Source: an uncultured Clostridia bacterium (lineage in GTDB: Bacteria > Bacillota > Clostridia > Saccharofermentanales > Saccharofermentanaceae). From it: a stretch of DNA of 64,000 bases. This document shows, one piece after another, positions 11,615-60,207 of this stretch. A model generated the notes under the pieces. It saw only the letters and a list, made by a program, of their open reading frames with translations. It searched no databases and was not told the DNA's origin. The position numbers and the translations under genes are program-made. Location of the stretch: NCBI GenBank assembly GCA_947167045.1, contig CAMVGO010000004.1, positions 29,533 through 93,532 of the forward strand, read 5' to 3'. Within the stretch, counting starts at the first letter, position 1, and the number at the start of each line of letters is the position of its first letter.

Positions 11615-13108
11615 ATGAGTAAATCCAACCTTCAGGATGGAGCGGTCTACGACGCGAAAACTCTGGGTGCCGGTCGTATCGTCGTACTCGGTTTCCAACA
11701 CATGTTCGCCATGTTCGGATCAACTATCCTGGTTCCTGCTCTCACCGGACTGTCGGTGTCAGCCACACTTCTTTTCGCAGGTCTCGGAACACTTCTCTTC
11801 CACCTTATCTCAAAGAGAAAAGTACCTGCATTCCTCGGTTCATCTTTTGCATTCCTTGCCGGTTACTTCGCCATTGCACCGAACGGCGAACGTGAACTGC
11901 TTCCCTACGCCTGCTTCGGCGTTGCGTGCGCAGGTCTCATGTACCTCATCCTGGCAGGACTCATCAAGGGATTCGGCGTAAACCGTGTACTTAAGTTCTT
12001 CCCGCCTATCGTAACAGGCCCTATCATCATCGCGATCGGTCTCTGCCTTTCAGGCACCGCCATCAACAGTTGCTCCACCAACTGGATCGTCGCTGTCGTA
12101 GCGATCATCATCATCGTCATCTGCAACATCTGGGGTAAGGGAATGGTCAAGATCACCCCTATCCTCCTCGGTGTCATCGGCTCATGCGTACTCTGCATCA
12201 TCCTCATGCTCGCCACAGGCCGTCCTGACGGAAACGGCTACTATGCAATCATGGGCAATCCCGACTTCCAGTTATTCTCGGAAGCCAGCATAGAGAACAT
12301 CAAGAACGCCGCATGGCTCGGACTTCCTTTCAAGTATCAGGATACAGTTCCCGCCATCTTCACCGGCGGCAATCTCGACAAGGGTCTCCTTGTAACCGCG
12401 ATCGCAACCATCGTTCCGATCTCCCTCGCGACCATCGTTGAGCACATCGGCGACATCTCCGCCATCTCCTCGACAGTCGGACGTAACTTCATTCAGGATC
12501 CCGGACTTCACAGAACACTCATCGGTGACGGTCTTGCAACAACAGTCGCTTCCCTCTTCGGCGCTCCCGCCAACACAACATACGGCGAGAACACGGGCGT
12601 TCTTACTCTCTCCAAGGTATTCGATCCTATGGTAGTAAGACTTGCGGCTCTCTTTGCGATCCTCTTCTCTTTCTCACCCAAGCTCGCTGCATGCATCTCC
12701 GCTATCCCGACTCCTGTTATCGGCGGTATCTCGCTCGTACTCTACGGCATGATCTCCGCTGTCGGCGTAAGAAACGTAGTTGAGAACAAGATCGACTTCT
12801 CCAAGACGAGAAACGTCATCATCGCAGCTCTCATCCTCGTTCTTTCCATCGGCGTCACATACAGTTCCGCCGGTGCGATCAACATCCCCTGCGGTGCTTT
12901 CGTGATCTCCCTTTCCGGTCTCGCAGTAGGTTCTCTCGTAGGCATCATCTTCAACGCCGCACTTCCCGGCAAGGACTATGTTTTCGATGACAACCGCGAA
13001 GCAGCCGAAAGCAAGAACTCCAGCATAAAGCCTGAACCTGCAGGCAAGTTCCTTGTACTGGACAAAGACAAGGAAAAGGAAAAGAGCAAGGGAAAAAACA
13101 AGAAGTAA
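11615..13108 (+). CDS. uraA: Uracil permease (NCS2/UraA family)
   Basis: Membrane symporter that imports uracil. It has about 12-14 hydrophobic segments, the N-terminal FQHMFAMFGSTILVP motif of the NCS2 family, and the substrate-site region AFGAPANTTYGENTG-like (read here as FGAPANTTYGENTGV). The track start at 11609 (TTG) is less likely than the ATG at 11615, seven bases after GGAGGG. The C-terminal tail is highly charged and lysine-rich (DKDKEKEKSKGKNKK) and presumably cytoplasmic. upp lies divergently upstream. Confidence 0.93.
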   Translation: MSKSNLQDGAVYDAKTLGAGRIVVLGFQHMFAMFGSTILVPALTGLSVSATLLFAGLGTLLFHLISKRKVPAFLGSSFAFLAGYFAIAPNGERELLPYACFGVACAGLMYLILAGLIKGFGVNRVLKFFPPIVTGPIIIAIGLCLSGTAINSCSTNWIVAVVAIIIIVICNIWGKGMVKITPILLGVIGSCVLCIILMLATGRPDGNGYYAIMGNPDFQLFSEASIENIKNAAWLGLPFKYQDTVPAIFTGGNLDKGLLVTAIATIVPISLATIVEHIGDISAISSTVGRNFIQDPGLHRTLIGDGLATTVASLFGAPANTTYGENTGVLTLSKVFDPMVVRLAALFAILFSFSPKLAACISAIPTPVIGGISLVLYGMISAVGVRNVVENKIDFSKTRNVIIAALILVLSIGVTYSSAGAINIPCGAFVISLSGLAVGSLVGIIFNAALPGKDYVFDDNREAAESKNSSIKPEPAGKFLVLDKDKEKEKSKGKNKK

Positions 13109-13136
13109 TTCCTTAAACAGTTCAGATAATTTCCGG

Positions 13137-13174
13137 GGCTGACTCATAAACGAATGAGTCAGCCTCTTTCTTTT
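13137..13174 (+). terminator. Terminator of uraA
   Basis: GGCTGACTCAT (13137-13147) pairs with ATGAGTCAGCC (13154-13164) around a six-base loop and is followed by TCTTTCTTTT. It lies 28 bases past the stop. Confidence 0.88.
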
Positions 13175-13355
13175 GATCTGCAAAGATCAGCTTTGCGTCG
13201 GATTGCATGATCCTGATCCTCTGAAAGGACAAAAAGGGGTGAAAATATGCAAATTCCAAAAGCTTGCAAGTTTTTGACCCTTTTAGGGGTGGAAAAGGGT
13301 TGAAAAGACGCACCGGGGAAAAACCGATATTACGAAAGCAAAGTACTGGCCAGAT
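13175..13355. other. Non-coding stretch with short inverted repeats between convergent genes
   Basis: No convincing ORF is present. ACCCTTTT and AAAAGGGT (about 13277-13300) form an 8-bp stem around a G-rich loop. An AAAAAGGGGTGAAAA block near 13230 partly complements the TTTTTGACCCTTTT further on. Neither looks like a standard terminator, although the minus-strand gene ending at 13356 needs one. Confidence 0.3.
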
Positions 13356-13931
13356 TCAGAGTAATGCCAAGAGCGCGATCCCCGCTGTCTCAAGCACTAT
13401 GACGATTGCTAAAAGAAGCACGTACATCTTGAGCTTTGCGACATCCGTGACTGAAACGGAAACTGTCTGCCGGGGAGTTGCGGAATCAGTCTCTACCCCG
13501 CTGAAAGCGTCGGCTATGTAATCAGATGAAGCCGCCTTATCCTCTTCGGCGATAAAAAACGGCTGTTCGGATTCCTTAACAGGCTGCTTTATCTTTGCCC
13601 TGACTTCCTCAGTATCTATCTCGGGAACGAATATCCTGCTCTCCACCTTTGCAGCGCCCGTCTTGATACCTGTTGCCCTGGGCTTTATTTCACCCTTAAG
13701 GAGAGCCGTATCCTCAAACGGATTCATGGCATTGGCGGACTGCTCGGTAAACTCGGGAGTGTCCGAATCTCTTACGAAAGCCATCTGCTCGGCATCGTAA
13801 TGGATATTAACATCCACCCTGTCGAGCCTGGTAATGGGAACATGACGGTCGGGATCAAGTCTCCCCGGCCGTTCGTAAAGCGGTGTCTGTTCCGCATTTC
13901 TATTGATAAAACCGTTGCTTTCGTTTTCCAT
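13356..13931 (-). CDS. Uncharacterised protein with a C-terminal membrane anchor
   Basis: The 191-residue protein is mostly polar, charged and probably disordered. A single hydrophobic segment (about residues 168-189) sits at the very C-terminus, so it is likely a tail-anchored membrane protein with its bulk in the cytoplasm. I recognise no domain. It lies 77 bases downstream of the large DUF4011 helicase gene. It also has its own extended -10 only seven bases before the ATG and no visible Shine-Dalgarno site. Confidence 0.7.
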   Translation of the reverse strand: MENESNGFINRNAEQTPLYERPGRLDPDRHVPITRLDRVDVNIHYDAEQMAFVRDSDTPEFTEQSANAMNPFEDTALLKGEIKPRATGIKTGAAKVESRIFVPEIDTEEVRAKIKQPVKESEQPFFIAEEDKAASSDYIADAFSGVETDSATPRQTVSVSVTDVAKLKMYVLLLAIVIVLETAGIALLALL

Positions 13932-13938
13932 GTCGGTG

Positions 13939-13947
13939 ATTATACCA
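13939..13947 (-). promoter_or_regulatory. Extended -10 promoter giving a probable leaderless mRNA
   Basis: TGGTATAAT on the minus strand ends seven bases before the ATG at 13931. A transcript starting the usual 6-8 bases after the -10 would begin at or next to the start codon. No Shine-Dalgarno sequence fits in between. Confidence 0.5.
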
Positions 13948-14008
13948 CAATTCCGCGAAGGACATTTCCCTGGTCCTTCCTATCAGTTTTCCGAAAACCT
14001 GATACCCG

Positions 14009-17000
14009 TCATTCGCCCTTCACGAACAGATCGTCATCCATTACCAGCAGTTCCTGACGGATGCAGTAATCGACAGCCCTCTTTCCGAGCATGTAGTTAT
14101 CGGAATCCTCCGAAGCTCTCGAAAAACCTAAAGCCTTGCAGGTCTCGACAATAAGGCTCGCATAAGGCATGCCGTACTGTGACCTCGCCAGATAGTTGGC
14201 TGCGCACGCAGCTTCCTGAACAGGGATATCAGCGGCTTTACGCGGCTTCGTTCCTTCGGCAGGCGTCCTGTAGAAGTCCATGACCTTACCGATCTCGGTA
14301 CCGTCCTTCCAAAGAAAGATGACTTCCGAATCATCATCTTCGGATGCCAGGTCGAGCTTCTGCGTCGTGTAATGGAGCTTCACGTTCTTCTCTATGCTCT
14401 TTACGAGATAGGAACAGCGGTCGCGCAGCTTCGGCGTCATCTTTGCAATGCCTGCAAGTGTGATGAGTTCTTTTGCAAGGACATCGGCACTGACAGGCGA
14501 TTCCTGCTCCACGATAGCCATTACGCATTCCTGCAGATACTTGGTGTTAAGAGCATCGCAGAACTCCGCCGAAGTCATGGACCTCGGCTTAAGATCTGCA
14601 GCCTTATATGTTATTGAAGGACATCCGTTTGAGGTTATGTCTGCGTCAGCCGTTTTTTTTTGCGTCTGATCTTCAGCGCTGTCTGTTGAGGCCTGTTCTT
14701 CAGCTCCGTCTTCAGGCTCATCCTGACCGTATATCACTACTGTCGGACCGTTGCCGTCTTCTTCGGGAGATACAGCATCAGCGCTGTCTGAAGGTGCATC
14801 AGCAGAAGCATCCGCATCTGCTGCCGGAGTTTCTTCATCAGACTTGCTTTCCGCCTCACAGGCTTTCTTCGCGTCTTCTATCAGAGCCACCAGTTTTTCA
14901 AATACGCTGTCGGGATTCTCCCACCACTCGAGAGACCATATCCTTACAACGTTCCAGCCGAAGCTCTTGAGCATCGACATCTGGGATACTTCTCTTGATG
15001 TTGTCGTACCCGATGCCGCGTAAACTGGACCGTCCAAAAGGATGCCGAGGCAATACGTTCCGTCCTTCTCGGGAGATACGACGCCGATGTCGATCTTGAA
15101 TCCGGACTTTCCGACACCCTTATCGGTGTCATAACCCATTGCCTTGAATCTTGCGCAGATATCGTCCGCGATACCCGTGAATGCGGCGCTGCGGTCAATA
15201 AGCGGCGTGTTCGAATTATCCGATGAATTGCCTGTGGCGGCGATATCCTGATCCCAGACAGTGCTGCCTGCGGCATACTGAAGGAATCTCTTGAATGCCT
15301 TTACGCCCTCCGAAGACGTGTCATTGATGCGGATCTCTTCGGGCGAGATCGACGAGAACACTTTCATCTCGATCCTTGATCTGGTTACGGCAACATTAAG
15401 TCTTCTCCATCCGCCGTCCCTGTTCAGAGGACCGAAGTTCATTATCAGTCTTCCGGTCTCGTCCTTGCCGTAGCCTACCGAGAACAAAATGACGTCGCGT
15501 TCGTCACCCTGTACGTTTTCGAGATTCTTGATAAAGACGGGTTCCTCGCTGCCGAATGCCCACTTCTCGAGAACGGGATCCTTGCTCGCAGCCTCATCAA
15601 GAAGGTCTTCAATGAGCGACTGCTGCTGGATGTTGAACGTAACTACGCCGACGCTGTATCTTGAGAGCACGGGATCGTGAGCACGGTTTACGAGCTCATC
15701 AATAACGGCCTGGGCTTCAGTCTTATTCGTCCTTGTCTTTCCGGAATCGAACGAACCTCCGCAGTCGACCATAGTAACCTTTGATTCCCTGTCGTCAGGC
15801 GACGGGAACGTAAAGAGCCTTCCCTCATAGAAAGACTTATTGGAGAACGTGATGAGGCTTTCATGACGGCTCCTGTAGTGCCATGCCAGGAACATCTGCG
15901 GCATGCTTATCGCAAGGCAGTCGTCCAAGATGCTCTCAAGATCATCTGTCTCAAAAGCCTCTTCCTCATTGACCTGTTCCGTAAAGAATGACGTAGGCGG
16001 CATCTGCTTCGGGTCGCCGACGATAACGGCTTCCTTGCCTCTTGCTATAACGCCTATGGCTTTGCATGTCGGCAGCTGGCTCGCTTCGTCGAATACAACG
16101 ATATCGAACATTCCGCTCTTATCCGGATCGAGATACTGTGCGCATGAAAGAGGGCTCATGAGGACACAGGGACAGAGCTTTAGGATAAGGTCGCCGATCT
16201 GCGAGAAAAGGGTTCTTATCGACACGCCCCTGCCGCCTGACTTGATCGCATGCTGCAGGATGCCGAGTGCCGACGATACGTTCGCGTCCTTGCTGAGGTC
16301 AGGCAGATTCTTTGCTATCCTCAGGTAGATCTCCTGTCTCGTAAGCTTTTCGAACTCATCGTTGACCTTTGAAAGCTCATCTATCTTCTTCTCGAAAACA
16401 AGGCCCGAGAAAGATCTCAAGACTTCACTGTTATCGATTATCTGCGAAATGAGCAGACTGCTGTATGCCTTGCGGAACGAACCGATCATGCCGTCAGCCG
16501 TGACAGCGCCGCTGTCATAACCCTTTACGAGATTTGAGACCTTATACTCATCGCATCTTGATGCCATGAGATTGAACTGCATCCTGTCTCTTAAGAATTC
16601 GCTGTCATCGATAAGCGTCTGAGCCATCTGCTTCTTGGTCTCGAAAAGATCTTCGCCGGGCTCGAAACTTCCGTATGCAAAACCGTATACTGCATTAAGT
16701 TTTTCATAAGCATCCTTATATGCTGCTGCCTTGCGGTTAAAGTCGTTAACAGCTGTAACGGCGGTAACGTCACCGCTGCCTATCAGTTTTCTAAGAGTGC
16801 CTGTCGGATCAACGGGCGCGAACTCCGCAAATGCGGCATGCGCACTTTCATTGAGTGTTTCAACGGCTGCCACGTCAAAGCCCGGGAAAGCAACACCCGG
16901 ATTATAGAGTTCACCGAGATAACCTCTTGCGGAAGTAATGAATGCCAGAGCATTCTGAACTGAATTCCTGTAATCTGAGAGCGCCTTGAAATCCTGCTCA

Positions 17001-54438: not shown

Positions 54439-56814
54439 TTACATCTCCCTGATATATTTGGTCGTCCTGTCATTCAGATATCTGACAACATCGTCCAAAG
54501 ACCGGTCGCCGGCATAATACGGAGCGACTTCTTCCATAACAAACCCGGTGATCTTAGGATCACCGTAATAGTATGTGGACACCGTTGACATGCTGCTCAG
54601 GAAACTCTCTCGCATATCATCCGTTGCATATTTATCGCCATATGCCCTTTCCACGCTCGGAGGCACCCTTATCACGCCGCTCTCCTTTGAACCCAGATAC
54701 AGTTCAAATGCCTCGTTGTTGCGCAGCGTAAGGGTTTCGATGTTTCTGTTCATGATATCCCTGTTAGTTACGAGATTCCTGAATTCGCATACATCGTGAT
54801 CGTAAGCGCTGCCCGAAAACAGATAATTAATAAACTTCCTGCAGCCCTCCTTCACATCGGTGACCGCCGACACTGAAACAGTCTCAAGAGCAGTAAATCT
54901 GGGACCTGATGCATCAACCGAAGGTGTTCCGATAATGGCATAGTGTCCGTCCTGATCGTTGAGGATATGTACAAACTCCAGATAATCGGTGATCTTTAAA
55001 TAACAGCATTCTCCTTTATGTCTGGAGTCAGAATCATATAAATACTCAACAGGCACACTATCGTCATCGTCATAAACGAAGTTTTCATTCGCATATTCCA
55101 CTGCGGAACGGAACTGCTCTGTTCCGAAATCAACATCCTCACCTTCGATCGCACTCTTCGTATCTATGCATGAAAGGATAAAAGAGAGTTTGTCGCAATA
55201 CAGCGAGTCAGGATAGTCATACGGTGAAAAGCCGTTAAGCTCCTCTTTTACCATCCTGTCGAAGTCTTCAAACGTTATTCCTTCCGCACCGTCTTTGAGC
55301 AGTTCTGTATTTATAACAAGCCCCTCCAGTTCCAGAGTTACCGGCAGGAAATAAAGTTTACCGTTGTACCTTCCGGCCTCGATGATATTGGCATATTGTT
55401 TATCCATGACCTCAGGATCAAGGAAATCCGTCAGATCCATAAAGACATCATCGCGCATCGCATAATTCTGCTGGATACTGATGACAAGGTCCGGAGCCTC
55501 GTCACCTTTCAAGTCCTGGATCATCTCATACATTTCCGTTTCTTTTTCGTCAGCATTCGGGACCATTCTTCCCAATGTGAATCCGCTCTTGTACTTATCC
55601 CATACCCTTATGAGATACCGGTCATCCGTCTTATTGAATTCATATACGGCTTTTGCCAGATAATCCGAGATCCCTTCAGAATAGACCGGCACAGCAATTT
55701 CTATGATCTCTTTTCCAGCATGAGGATTCTTTTCTGCCTTTTCGAGAACGGTAACATATTCATAGGTGTTCTGATCATCAATTCCGTAGGATACATTTAC
55801 CTGGTCAAGTATGACTGTCCTTGTCTCGGTACAGCTCAGGATATAGGAATTGGTCAAAAGATAACTTGACCGCGTAGGATGGAAGAACGGCGTATACCAG
55901 TTAGTGTCGACCATTGTCACGGGAGTCATTGTTTCGGCATCTATCTTCATGACATTGCCGAGCGAATCGAGTTTGCACAGATCGCCTCTGTCCGTTGCCG
56001 TATATTCCGACAAGTCAACCGTCTTATCATCCGACTCGCCGGGACTTTTCTTGCTCTTGAACTTTCCGCTATTGATATCGAATGCCAGGATGACGATATC
56101 GCCGTATTCATAGCCTGTGACATACAAAGAATCCGATGAAAGATCCAATGAAAAACCTTCAAAGAAATAATTGATGTTTACTGTCGAGGTATCAAGTTCA
56201 CCGACAAGTTCCGAATCTTTGAACAATAAAAGCGAAAAAGAAACTTCCGCAGTTCCGGTACTGTTATTTAATGTCACAACGGCATAGTCGCCGATAATGT
56301 CTATAGCATAAACATCATTGTAGAAGGTGTTTCCCTTATTCAATACGTTCTTTATGTTCGATACCGTTCCTGTCTCAGTATCGATATCGATAAACGCCTG
56401 AAACTGTTTTCCGGAAGAATTGAGGTAAACAGCTGCTTTTACGGTCTTTCCGTCAGGATCCGCGCTTACAGAATAAATACTCTGAACACGGAAACCGTCA
56501 GGACAGGAGAGCTCCTTCCGCCCGAGCAGGTTTCCTTCAAGATCATAAGTATCAAGAACCGTTCTGCACGAACCCCAATGATCCTTTGACAAAGGATAAA
56601 CGGAAAACACCCGGTCGCTGCCAGTACAGATCCCAGTATTCCCCAATTGTTCATATTGCCGTATGTCTTTTTCGATCTTGAACTTGGTCAAATCATACCA
56701 CGGATCATCTTCTTTGACCGTATTGTTTCCTGTCTTTCCCGGGGAACAGGACGCAAGCACCGGCAACAGCAAAATGACTGCCATGGCAAATGCAACTATT
56801 CTTGTTTTTTTCAT
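54439..56814 (-). CDS. Lipoprotein with propeller-like N-terminus and solute-binding C-terminus (copy 1)
   Basis: A 791-residue lipoprotein (lipobox LASC). Residues about 40-360 contain repeated beta-strand units with recurring YDLEG, DIDTETGTVSNI and FDINSGK phrases, suggesting a beta-propeller. From about residue 366 (EIIEIAVPVYSEGISDYL) it reads like a family-1 extracellular solute-binding protein: RYLIRVWDKY, DAPDLVISI-like (EAPDLVISIQ), NGKLYFLPVTLELEG. It ends in a helical C-terminus. No permease or ATPase lies beside it. The neighbour at 56886 is a close paralogue. Sugar or peptide sensing is plausible but unproven. Confidence 0.8.
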   Translation of the reverse strand: MKKTRIVAFAMAVILLLPVLASCSPGKTGNNTVKEDDPWYDLTKFKIEKDIRQYEQLGNTGICTGSDRVFSVYPLSKDHWGSCRTVLDTYDLEGNLLGRKELSCPDGFRVQSIYSVSADPDGKTVKAAVYLNSSGKQFQAFIDIDTETGTVSNIKNVLNKGNTFYNDVYAIDIIGDYAVVTLNNSTGTAEVSFSLLLFKDSELVGELDTSTVNINYFFEGFSLDLSSDSLYVTGYEYGDIVILAFDINSGKFKSKKSPGESDDKTVDLSEYTATDRGDLCKLDSLGNVMKIDAETMTPVTMVDTNWYTPFFHPTRSSYLLTNSYILSCTETRTVILDQVNVSYGIDDQNTYEYVTVLEKAEKNPHAGKEIIEIAVPVYSEGISDYLAKAVYEFNKTDDRYLIRVWDKYKSGFTLGRMVPNADEKETEMYEMIQDLKGDEAPDLVISIQQNYAMRDDVFMDLTDFLDPEVMDKQYANIIEAGRYNGKLYFLPVTLELEGLVINTELLKDGAEGITFEDFDRMVKEELNGFSPYDYPDSLYCDKLSFILSCIDTKSAIEGEDVDFGTEQFRSAVEYANENFVYDDDDSVPVEYLYDSDSRHKGECCYLKITDYLEFVHILNDQDGHYAIIGTPSVDASGPRFTALETVSVSAVTDVKEGCRKFINYLFSGSAYDHDVCEFRNLVTNRDIMNRNIETLTLRNNEAFELYLGSKESGVIRVPPSVERAYGDKYATDDMRESFLSSMSTVSTYYYGDPKITGFVMEEVAPYYAGDRSLDDVVRYLNDRTTKYIREM

Positions 56815-56885
56815 GATATTATCCCCACATTAAACTTCAACTCCAAATATAAGAGTTGCTTAAGAGTGTTCAGTTCCCGCTGAGT

Positions 56886-59285
56886 TCACATCTCTCCCAG
56901 GTATTTTTCCGTCCTGTCATTCAGGAACCTGATAGCATCGTCAAGCGAACGGTCACCGACATAATAAGGTGAGATCTCTTCAAACACGAATTTTACGATC
57001 TGCATATCTTCATAATAGTAAGTGGAGATAGTCGACATACTGTAAAGGAAACTGTCGCACATTTCGTCAGTTGATTCCTTATCACCCGTTGCACGCTCGT
57101 AAGCCGGATTCGGAATTATCGCCGCGCTTTTCTTGGCGGCCTGATACAGTTCAAATGCTTCGTTGTTATTCTTTGAAAGAGTTGTTACGTTCTTTTCCAT
57201 GATCTCCCTGTTCGTAACTATCTCCATGAAGTCACATTCTCCGGAACTTACTGCCGCGCCCGAGAAAAGATAGTTTATGAATCTCCTGCAGCCTTCGGTC
57301 ACATCTGTGGTTGCAGATACGGATATCGTCTCAACGGCCCTGAATCTCGGTCCAGACGCATCAACGGAAGGTGTTCCGATAATTACATATTGTCCTTTGG
57401 ACGAATAGCACGCATGCACATAATCAAGATAATCGTTGATCCTTTCGTAATAGCATTCCGTTCTTTCCCTGTGGTCAATATCGTTAATATATTCCTGAGG
57501 AGTGCTGTTCAGATCGTCATACGCGATATTCTCATTTGCATATTCTACTGCTGTACGGAACTGCTCCGTTCCGAAATCAACCTCCTCACCCTCGATAACG
57601 CTTTTCGTATCTATGCATGACAAGATAAAATCACGTTTGTTATAGACCTTTGAGTACTGATGATCATAAGGCGAAAAGCCGTCCAGATCCTCTTTTATCA
57701 TCTTGTCAAATTCTTCGAATGTTATCCCTTCAGCACCGTCTTTCAAAAGATCGGAATTCGTGACAAGTCCTTCTATTTCCAAAGTTACCGGGAGAAAATA
57801 CAGCTTTCCGTCGATCTTTCCTGCCTCAAAGATATTAGTGTATTGCTTCTCTGCGACATCAGGATCGATAAATCCCGTCAGATCCATAAAGACATCATCA
57901 CGCATTGCATAATCCTTCTGAATGCCTATGGCGATATCAGGTGCACCGTCATCTTTAAGATCCTGTATCATCTCAAATAATTCAGTCTCGTTCTCATCGG
58001 CATTGGGAACCATCATTCCCAAAGTTGTTCCGTTCTTATACTTATCCCACACACGCAGGATGTATTCACTGTCTGATCTGTTAAATTCATATATTGCGCT
58101 CGCAAGATAATACGACACGCCGGAATTGACCGGCAGAGCCAGTTCGATTATCTGTTTGCCTGCATGAGGGTTCTTATCAGCCTTTTTCAACACACGGATG
58201 TACTCAGTGAACTTGTAATCGTTATCGCCGTACGATCTCGACTCACATTCGATGATAATGGTCCTGTCCTCGTTGCAGCTCACGACACCTGCACTAAAGC
58301 CGATCCTGTCATCACTTAAGACACCTAACGACGCAGGAAAAAACGGAGTATACCAGTTGGTATCGACAATGGTCTGAGGAGTCATGCTGTTTACGTCGAG
58401 CTTTACGATATTCCCGAATGAATCCAGCTTGCACATATCACCGTCTGACGTTGTGGTATATTCCGCCAGATCATCCGTCGCGCCTTCTGCTCCCTGTATG
58501 TTGATCTTATCTTTCAGTTGTCCGTTGTTAATATCAAACACCATGGAAATTATGCCGTTAGTTTCAAGACCTGTAGCGTGTAAGGTGTTTGTAGATTCAT
58601 CAATAGATAAACCACCCAGAAAATAAAACAGATTAAGTGTCGACATATCAAAATCGGTTACAAATTCACGGTCCTTGAACAGCATCAGTTCCCACTGCGA
58701 ACTCCTGCCGCCGTTATAATCTCCGATCAGCTCAACGACTGCGTAATCCCCGATAAATGAAACATTGGATAATGAACCGCTTGTACCTGTCGCGGCTTTT
58801 ACTTTTTTGCTTATGACTTCCTGTATGTTTGATATCACTCCGGTCTCCACATCTATATCCGCAAATGAAAAACTTCCCCTTCCGCTGTAATTAAGGAAAA
58901 ACACGGCACTTAAAGTCTTTCCTTCGGGATCGGAACCGACAGCATAAATATCCTGAACACGAGCCCCGTCAGGGCTGGTGACTTCAGTATGCTTGATGCG
59001 TTTTCCGTCAAGATCGTATGTATCGAGGATCATCTGTGATGTTCCCCATCTGTCCGGACTCTTGGAATAGATCGAAAAGATCAAGTCTCCGCTGGTACAT
59101 TCCACGGATCTGCCAAGTTCCTCGTATGGCTTCAAGTTTTTCTCCAGTTCAAACCTTGTCGATTCGTACCAGGGATCGTCTTCTTTGACAACATTAGTCT
59201 TTTTCTTAGCCGGTGAACAGGACATCAGCATCGGTGTAAGCATAACGACAGCCATGAAAATAACTACAGGTTTGATTTTTCCCAT
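56886..59285 (-). CDS. Lipoprotein with propeller-like N-terminus and solute-binding C-terminus (copy 2)
   Basis: Tandem paralogue of the 54439 gene, with the same order: signal peptide and lipobox LMSC, the shared VKEDDPWY segment after it, propeller-like strands, then the solute-binding part from about residue 373. Many stretches are identical, for example IDTKSVIEGEEVDFGTEQF against IDTKSAIEGEDVDFGTEQF, and DASGPRF. ATG 59285, after GGGG, gives 799 residues; the 81 extra residues of the track form lack a signal and are rejected. 71 bases separate the two genes. No transporter subunits are adjacent. Confidence 0.82.
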   Translation of the reverse strand: MGKIKPVVIFMAVVMLTPMLMSCSPAKKKTNVVKEDDPWYESTRFELEKNLKPYEELGRSVECTSGDLIFSIYSKSPDRWGTSQMILDTYDLDGKRIKHTEVTSPDGARVQDIYAVGSDPEGKTLSAVFFLNYSGRGSFSFADIDVETGVISNIQEVISKKVKAATGTSGSLSNVSFIGDYAVVELIGDYNGGRSSQWELMLFKDREFVTDFDMSTLNLFYFLGGLSIDESTNTLHATGLETNGIISMVFDINNGQLKDKINIQGAEGATDDLAEYTTTSDGDMCKLDSFGNIVKLDVNSMTPQTIVDTNWYTPFFPASLGVLSDDRIGFSAGVVSCNEDRTIIIECESRSYGDNDYKFTEYIRVLKKADKNPHAGKQIIELALPVNSGVSYYLASAIYEFNRSDSEYILRVWDKYKNGTTLGMMVPNADENETELFEMIQDLKDDGAPDIAIGIQKDYAMRDDVFMDLTGFIDPDVAEKQYTNIFEAGKIDGKLYFLPVTLEIEGLVTNSDLLKDGAEGITFEEFDKMIKEDLDGFSPYDHQYSKVYNKRDFILSCIDTKSVIEGEEVDFGTEQFRTAVEYANENIAYDDLNSTPQEYINDIDHRERTECYYERINDYLDYVHACYSSKGQYVIIGTPSVDASGPRFRAVETISVSATTDVTEGCRRFINYLFSGAAVSSGECDFMEIVTNREIMEKNVTTLSKNNNEAFELYQAAKKSAAIIPNPAYERATGDKESTDEMCDSFLYSMSTISTYYYEDMQIVKFVFEEISPYYVGDRSLDDAIRFLNDRTEKYLGEM

Positions 59286-59321
59286 ATTAATACCCCACTT
59301 TATTCTTATTATCCCGATATC

Positions 59322-59327
59322 ATTATA
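59322..59327 (-). promoter_or_regulatory. -10 box of the copy-2 lipoprotein gene
   Basis: TATAAT on the minus strand 36 bases before the ATG at 59285; TTCATA lies 15 bases upstream as a weak -35. It could serve both tandem genes. Confidence 0.45.
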
Positions 59328-59397
59328 CATCTGACTGAAGGATATGAATAAAGAAATATCTGCTGCCGGTTTGTGTAATCTGCAACCGTGTTTCCCG

Positions 59398-60207
59398 TCA
59401 GAAAGTCTCCGCGTTCTTAACTGTCCTGTTTCCTGCAAGAGCAACGCACAAGACTTTTGAGGCTCCTGCTTTGTACAAGGCTTTGGCAGTCTCATGAAGA
59501 GTCGCACCCGTCGTAGACACGTCATCAACGGCCATTACAGTAAGGCCTGTCACATCCCATTTGTCGCTTACCGCAAACGCGTCCTTTATATTGTCCGCCC
59601 TTCTGAAACTGTCCTTCATATCGGTCTGACGTCCGGTGTCCCTCGTTCTGATCAGGCAATCTTCGACAAACGGTATCCCGCAAAGCTTGGCAACCGGATA
59701 AGCGATCTCGGAGGCCTGATTAAATCCTCTTTCCTCAAGTCTTTCCGCGGACAGTGGAACCGGAACGACAATATCAGCTTTTATATCCTCACCGCAAAGA
59801 GATGACCCCAAAAGACAACCGAAGAATCTTGCAAGTTCTGTCTTTTTCGAGAATTTTATCTTGGGAATGCATTTCCCGACCGTACCCTGATACGGAAATG
59901 GCATATAAAGTGCGAGACCCGGGCAGGGATCGTTCTCGACAGGGTTCGAAAGGCACAGGAACCATCTCCTTGTCTGATCCTGCAAACCGATATGCGAGAG
60001 GCATTTGCCGCAGATATGAAGACCTGACTCGCCGCCGTATAAAGAGCGGTACAGTTCATCGTATCCTCCGAACCTGTCCTCCGTATCGGAGACGCTGCCG
60101 CAGACGGCGCACTTGTAAGGAAGAATAAGATCCACGGCCCCTTTTAACGCTTCTCTTATCTCTCCCGGTACAACAGTGCTGTGAAATCTGCAGCGGGAAA
60201 TACCCAT
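59398..60207 (-). CDS. comF: ComF-family protein
   Basis: Competence-associated protein with a phosphoribosyltransferase fold. The N-terminus carries a zinc-binding pair, CAVCGSV then CGKC. VMAVDDVSTTGATLHETA near the C-terminus is the PRPP motif, and VPVPLSAERLEERGFNQA is the conserved central signature. At 269 residues it is somewhat longer than typical ComFC. Its ATG overlaps the recD2 stop by one base (TAATG), so expression is coupled. ComF acts in DNA uptake in transformable bacteria; the ComEA-like gene is 20 kb away. Confidence 0.9.
   Translation of the reverse strand: MGISRCRFHSTVVPGEIREALKGAVDLILPYKCAVCGSVSDTEDRFGGYDELYRSLYGGESGLHICGKCLSHIGLQDQTRRWFLCLSNPVENDPCPGLALYMPFPYQGTVGKCIPKIKFSKKTELARFFGCLLGSSLCGEDIKADIVVPVPLSAERLEERGFNQASEIAYPVAKLCGIPFVEDCLIRTRDTGRQTDMKDSFRRADNIKDAFAVSDKWDVTGLTVMAVDDVSTTGATLHETAKALYKAGASKVLCVALAGNRTVKNAETF

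Follow-up and report, generated by a model that had tools for sequence, protein, structure and literature searches.

Tandem lipoproteins with a predicted beta-propeller and a CUT1-type solute-binding domain as probable binding proteins of a sugar-type ABC importer encoded elsewhere in the genome

We propose, at a probability of roughly two in three, that W1 and W2, two neighbouring lipoproteins of an uncultured Clostridia bacterium, are anchored at the cell surface and bind ligand for a sugar-type ABC importer that is encoded elsewhere in the genome. Relatives of the pair lie beside a conserved malF-malG operon, most genomes of the genus carry one such MalF, and the four that lack the protein family also lack this MalF; W1 and W2 are thus most likely importer binding proteins and not sensors that lack a transporter. 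Within the window, by which we mean the whole 64,000-nucleotide stretch of DNA that was analysed, the two genes and their parts are as follows.

54439 to 56814, minus strand: W1, lipoprotein with a predicted propeller and a solute-binding domain, 791 aa
56746 to 56814, minus strand: signal peptide and lipobox of W1 (LASC, Cys23), read from the sequence; Cys23 is invariant in 13 paralogues
56695 to 56709, minus strand: DDPWY motif of W1; Trp39 is invariant in 87 of 87 aligned relatives
55729 to 56727, minus strand: N-terminal domain of W1, residues 30-362, modelled as a beta-propeller of about six sheets
55711 to 55728, minus strand: inter-domain motif NPHAGK of W1 (residues 363-368), kept throughout the family
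54442 to 55710, minus strand: CUT1-type solute-binding domain of W1, residues 369-791, from profile and fold matches
56886 to 59285, minus strand: W2, tandem paralogue of W1, 799 aa, 57% identical to W1
59217 to 59285, minus strand: signal peptide and lipobox of W2 (LMSC, Cys23), read from the sequence
58173 to 59198, minus strand: N-terminal propeller-type domain of W2, by alignment to residues 30-362 of W1
56889 to 58172, minus strand: NPHAGK motif and solute-binding domain of W2, by profile match and alignment

The genes are separated by 71 bases and both products carry the DDPWY motif. Aligned over their whole length they are 57% identical; the propeller regions share 45% of their residues and the binding regions 66%, a likeness that is, as a matter of sequence comparison, far beyond chance. 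The sequence-only reading had described two lipoproteins of about 795 residues with the same domain order and many identical stretches, and this description holds. Each protein has a lipobox cysteine at position 23. The open reading frame called mechanically for W2 (window 56886-59528) begins at a TTG within the comF-like gene; the start of the gene is likely the ATG at 59285, where the lipoprotein signal begins.

The whole-protein AlphaFold2 model (87 sequences) consists of two parts, with a mean pLDDT of 80.5 and a pTM of 0.85; the predicted propeller spans about residues 40 to 361, ahead of the binding domain. Modelled alone, the 333 residues from 30 to 362 of W1 give an all-beta structure (AlphaFold2, mean pLDDT 84.7, pTM 0.84), whose matches in the PDB are propellers of unrelated families, namely TYW4, WDR91, sialidases and NHL proteins, with E values of 1e-7 to 3e-6 and TM scores of 0.2-0.6. 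The N-terminal 330 or so residues of W1 are accordingly predicted to form a beta-propeller, a closed ring of mostly four-stranded sheets; strand counting gives about six blades, an uncertain number. By sequence, neither W1 nor W2 matches a Pfam propeller family at E values up to 1, and we treat the propeller as a predicted fold because sequence searches assign neither protein to a propeller family. The propeller-like domain anticipated from the sequence is thereby upheld at the level of fold prediction. One full-length relative from another family (L230:3312-5717) matches PQQ_2, the BamB-type propeller repeat, at an E value of 3.5e-5, just below the cut-off.

For the C-terminal part, the best support comes from fold matches to CUT1-type sugar-binding proteins (7bvt, 7x0i and 5ysf, E about 1e-11), which substantiate the solute-binding domain originally suggested for both proteins. 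This part of W1 is predicted to adopt the two-lobed CUT1-type binding fold, with carbohydrate as the putative ligand. Against the SBP_bac_8 profile W1 scores 24.7 bits and W2 22.1 bits, both just under the cut-off of 27, and several paralogues and relatives score above the Pfam cut-off for SBP_bac_8 or SBP_bac_1. The motifs GKLYxLP and GxPSxDxxGP are kept in the binding domain among paralogues. In every one of the 78 paralogue pairs of this genome the binding part is better conserved than the propeller part (mean identity 37% versus 24%), and the faster divergence of the propeller fits a variable recognition role, or alternatively may reflect relaxed constraint.

W1 and W2 belong to a family defined by a lipoprotein anchor, a propeller-like domain, an NPHAGK-type linker and a CUT1-type binding domain. 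This genome (G000; 2.58 Mb, 79% complete) encodes at least 13 full-length members, W1, W2 and 11 others, as well as one further member truncated by a contig end. These genes are spread over eleven contigs; a lipobox is found in all of the products, and a PW[FY] motif in all but one, which has TWY. The family is present in 31 of 35 genomes of the genus, most of which hold several copies, up to at least 18, all such counts being lower bounds from 17 candidates scored per genome. Outside the genus it is sparse: a class-wide draw of 391 genomes, with two candidates scored per genome, gave matches in 23, of which 11 were from this genus. Named relatives are mostly rumen or gut MAGs labelled Saccharofermentans, Ruminococcaceae or Clostridiales; two named carriers of the family, Ruminococcaceae bacterium AB4001 and YAD3003, appear to be isolates. 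Close family members also turn up in MAGs whose records bear the names Dehalococcoidales, Paludibacteraceae, Mogibacterium and Butyrivibrio (L043, L084, L053 and L081 respectively), where mislabelling or misbinning is possible. The loci of relatives were found with a closer subset of paralogues, and lean to the main subfamily rather than to that of the window.

Our proposal draws on the genomic context of these relatives. A cassette of conserved order, malF-malG-HlyD-like-MacB_PCD-like, recurs in the genus, and in nine genomes (G001, G003, G010, G012, G017, G019, G028, G030 and G034) malF is immediately preceded by one to four family genes in the same orientation. In a further genome, G009, a member of the window subfamily that is 52% identical to W1 is divergent from a malF-malG pair. 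With the MalF of G009 as query, a single orthologue was found in each of 29 of the 35 genus genomes, at 60-72% identity. The four genus genomes that have no family member also gave no malF match (Fisher p = 3e-4, shared ancestry ignored); two more, G014 and G025, have the family and no malF match, and both are incomplete MAGs (80% and 84%). The cassette permeases and MacB_PCD proteins score above their Pfam cut-offs. The HlyD match is weak in G000; in G001 it passes the cut-off for HlyD_3, and in f25 those of several HlyD-type models. The MacB_PCD-like cassette proteins gave no match to an ATPase domain.

The same association extends to other families. Operons of the order malF-malG-HlyD-MacB_PCD-family, with the family gene last, are found in f3, f42 and f29; three genomes of f3 have a single family gene as the fifth gene of the cassette operon, and the binding protein in f42 and f29 is of the 800-residue type. 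The operon of f110 runs family-malF-malG-HlyD-MacB_PCD-UgpC, and so includes a UgpC-type ATPase, while f67 has a more divergent version of the cassette. Going by gene content, the propeller is an optional part of this conserved cassette, because the cassettes of f25, f90 and f159 carry a propeller-less binding protein of 457-498 residues. Two relatives outside the genus, L212 and L213, have no adjoining malFG. At one locus (L236:4324-14688) a cassette with a UgpC-type ATPase and a propeller-less binding protein adjoins genes for VanR, VanS and a VanI-type D-Ala-D-Lac ligase, and similar two-component genes lie beside the cassette at L234 and L235.

Several genus genomes, including G000, have the malFG operon alone near pyk with no adjoining family gene. 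The orthologous pair in G000 is on contig C50, where SBP_bac_8 has no match anywhere on the contig. The pairing of W1 and W2 with this permease rests on relatives, because no copy of the family in G000 lies near it. Two other sugar permease pairs of this genome, on C11 and C36, were considered as partners and set aside, as each seems to own a binding protein (in the case of C36 by inspection only). A single OB_MalK ATPase was found in G000, on C52, the pattern to be expected of a multitask ATPase shared by several importers. ATPases of this kind, common to several bacterial type I sugar importers, are established (PMC7658222).

At the window locus itself, the W1-W2 array is flanked by comF, recD2 and metK on one side and by an mraY-like gene, argS and pepF on the other. 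The arrangement metK-recD2-comF-[family]-mraY-like-argS recurs in other genomes of the genus: G007 and G008 have a single family copy there, G005 has two and G033 three, and a window-type locus in G020 holds at least three copies at a contig end. The window subfamily occurs in 14 of the 35 genus genomes, and has five tandem members on one contig of G025. Between 50 and 64 kb of the window we recognised no gene for a permease, an ATPase or a kinase; the closest BPD_transp_1 permease in the window lies at about 8.8-9.3 kb. The claim that the two lipoproteins stand without a transporter is thus correct for their immediate surroundings. It does not extend to the family: relatives adjoin malF-malG, the orthologous pair is present in G000, and a cognate permease operon elsewhere, named beforehand as the result that would refute the claim, was found in relatives of W1 and W2. 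Also conserved are arrays with two to four members of the family that follow tuf and precede both an XRE regulator and a potABCD operon of the polyamine type (L047, L051, L052, L054, L059 and L066; tuf itself was seen in all except L051). This operon was rejected as the partner of the arrays; it owns a PotD-like binding protein, and an opposite-strand gene and the XRE regulator separate it from them.

The sequence-only reading had also suggested a surface sensor or co-receptor, and its proposed search of other genomes for the same fusion and its linked genes gave a mixed answer: permease pairs in nine genus genomes, in G009 and in other families, and M56 peptidases in some. In five genus genomes a gene for a BlaI-type repressor is immediately followed by one whose product joins an M56 peptidase of the BlaR1 type to a C-terminal family protein (G004; G005, with two fusions; G023; G032, with more than one; and G033, where the fusion is divergent). 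The M56 domain (PF05569) scores 85-98 bits in the four fusions tested, the BlaI-type repressor of G005 scores 103 bits against PF03965, and both G005 fusion proteins have the HExxH zinc motif. Fusion loci with a BlaI-type repressor before each include L028:8065-11310 and 12261-15545, L029, L030:953-4207, L155:6228-9326, L156:5775-9020 and L158, most of which have an operator pair. In a FastTree tree the fusions are spread over more than one clade, and a single origin for all of them is unsupported. At L105:3597-8141 the same parts are encoded one after another by three unfused genes with an operator pair ahead, first a BlaI-type repressor (PF03965, 96.7 bits), then an M56 peptidase (117.7 bits) and last a family lipoprotein, a possible forerunner of the fusions. 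Predicted paired operators with the pattern GTNNACNNNNGTNNAC, mostly 31-38 bases apart, precede the blaI genes of the fusions and of L105 as well as other blaI genes. The M56 fusions point to a possible non-antibiotic input for a BlaR1-type switch.

On this evidence one might suppose that W1, W2 and other free copies likewise act as sensors or co-receptors that relay ligand binding to a separate membrane protein, for example a histidine kinase or a stand-alone M56 peptidase. The fusions, the L105 gene order and the BlaI-like neighbours at nine loci (a count that includes some overlapping loci) speak for such a role, and some free copies may signal instead of serving transport because certain relatives use the family protein as the sensor part of a fusion. 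Yet the link is confined to derived relatives, fused or, at L105, adjacent. W1 and W2 have no M56 domain in Pfam searches, no histidine kinase was recognised beside them, and their locus has no BlaI-type repressor or operator. A search of the available sequence within about 250 bp upstream of 206 family genes found no BlaI-type operator, and none lies upstream of W1 or W2, which leaves control of the free lipoproteins by the BlaI switch unsupported. The permease operon, by comparison, is a widespread context both inside and outside the genus, and we consider it unlikely that the free copies are sensors. Two divergent paralogues of this genome have regulatory genes in their vicinity: L022 (G000:C24) has two-component genes nearby, and the neighbours of L024 (G000:C10) are a response regulator and ABC genes.

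We regard as more improbable still that the proteins are surface adhesins or glycan grippers, in which the propeller would keep substrate close to the cell and the binding domain would have ceased to feed a transporter. The very large copy number, the fast divergence of the propeller and the scores of the window copies below the SBP_bac_8 cut-off would all suit such proteins. However, the binding domain is the better conserved part in every paralogue pair and retains GKLYxLP and GxPSxDxxGP, which would be unexpected had its role been lost.

If W1 and W2 are indeed importer binding proteins, they and the other dispersed copies would pass their ligand to one and the same MalFG complex, that of C50, with import driven by the sole MalK-type ATPase found, that of C52. 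The faster-changing propeller may capture or position differing extracellular targets, plausibly plant glycans in a rumen bacterium, while the slower-changing binding domain would keep its docking surface and hand over the ligand. The HlyD-like and MacB_PCD-like proteins may be part of the same machine. The binding protein has multiplied, to at least 13 copies in this genome, into tandem arrays at fixed places such as the window locus, the genus keeping one such MalF per genome. A more elaborate version, which we put forward tentatively and hold to be possible rather than probable, is a composite importer of a distinct kind. In it MalFG and a UgpC-type ATPase would be in physical contact with an envelope assembly of the HlyD/MacB_PCD type and would receive ligand from at least a dozen interchangeable binding proteins that bear propellers, with the same module re-used as a BlaI-M56 sensor, so that it would serve both uptake and gene control.

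Several parts of this system are familiar. CUT1-type (MalE-like) binding proteins that work with MalFG and the multitask ATPases MsmX/UgpC share the lipoprotein anchor, the CUT1 fold and, in relatives, MalF/MalG and a UgpC-type ATPase; the present family differs in adding an N-terminal propeller-like domain of about 330 residues, in having HlyD-like and MacB_PCD-like proteins in the same operon, and in its many dispersed binding proteins per permease pair. HlyD-like adaptors and MacB-like core domains are parts of assemblies of the MacA-MacB and YknX-YknYZ type, and such adaptor parts are normally found in exporters. The cassette shares the HlyD-like adaptor and the MacB-like periplasmic core domain with these assemblies, whereas its versions accompany an importer-type MalFG. 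The BlaR1/MecR1 and BlaI/MecI systems (PMC7593790) resemble the fused relatives in their repressor, M56 peptidase, extracellular C-terminal sensor and paired promoter operators; the sensor of the relatives, however, is a propeller with a solute-binding domain rather than a beta-lactam-binding domain, and the arrangement is absent at the window locus. Pneumococcal Ami, in which five binding proteins use one permease (PMC11192437), offers a parallel in its several lipoprotein binding proteins, the sharing of one permease being our inference for the present family. Ami is an oligopeptide system with no propeller described, in contrast to the putative sharing by at least 13 copies here. Relative to known importers, the family differs in its propeller, its HlyD/MacB_PCD companions, its copy number and its re-use in a BlaR1-type receptor. 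The open-access papers searched, outside which most subscription journals lie, describe neither the cassette nor the M56 fusion, the propeller or the copy number.

If our proposal is correct, one importer would be served by at least 13 binding proteins, compared with five in pneumococcal Ami, and the variable propeller would be a way to broaden the range of targets without new permeases. More generally, the cassette unites importer permeases with exporter-type adaptors, and so poses a direct structural question.
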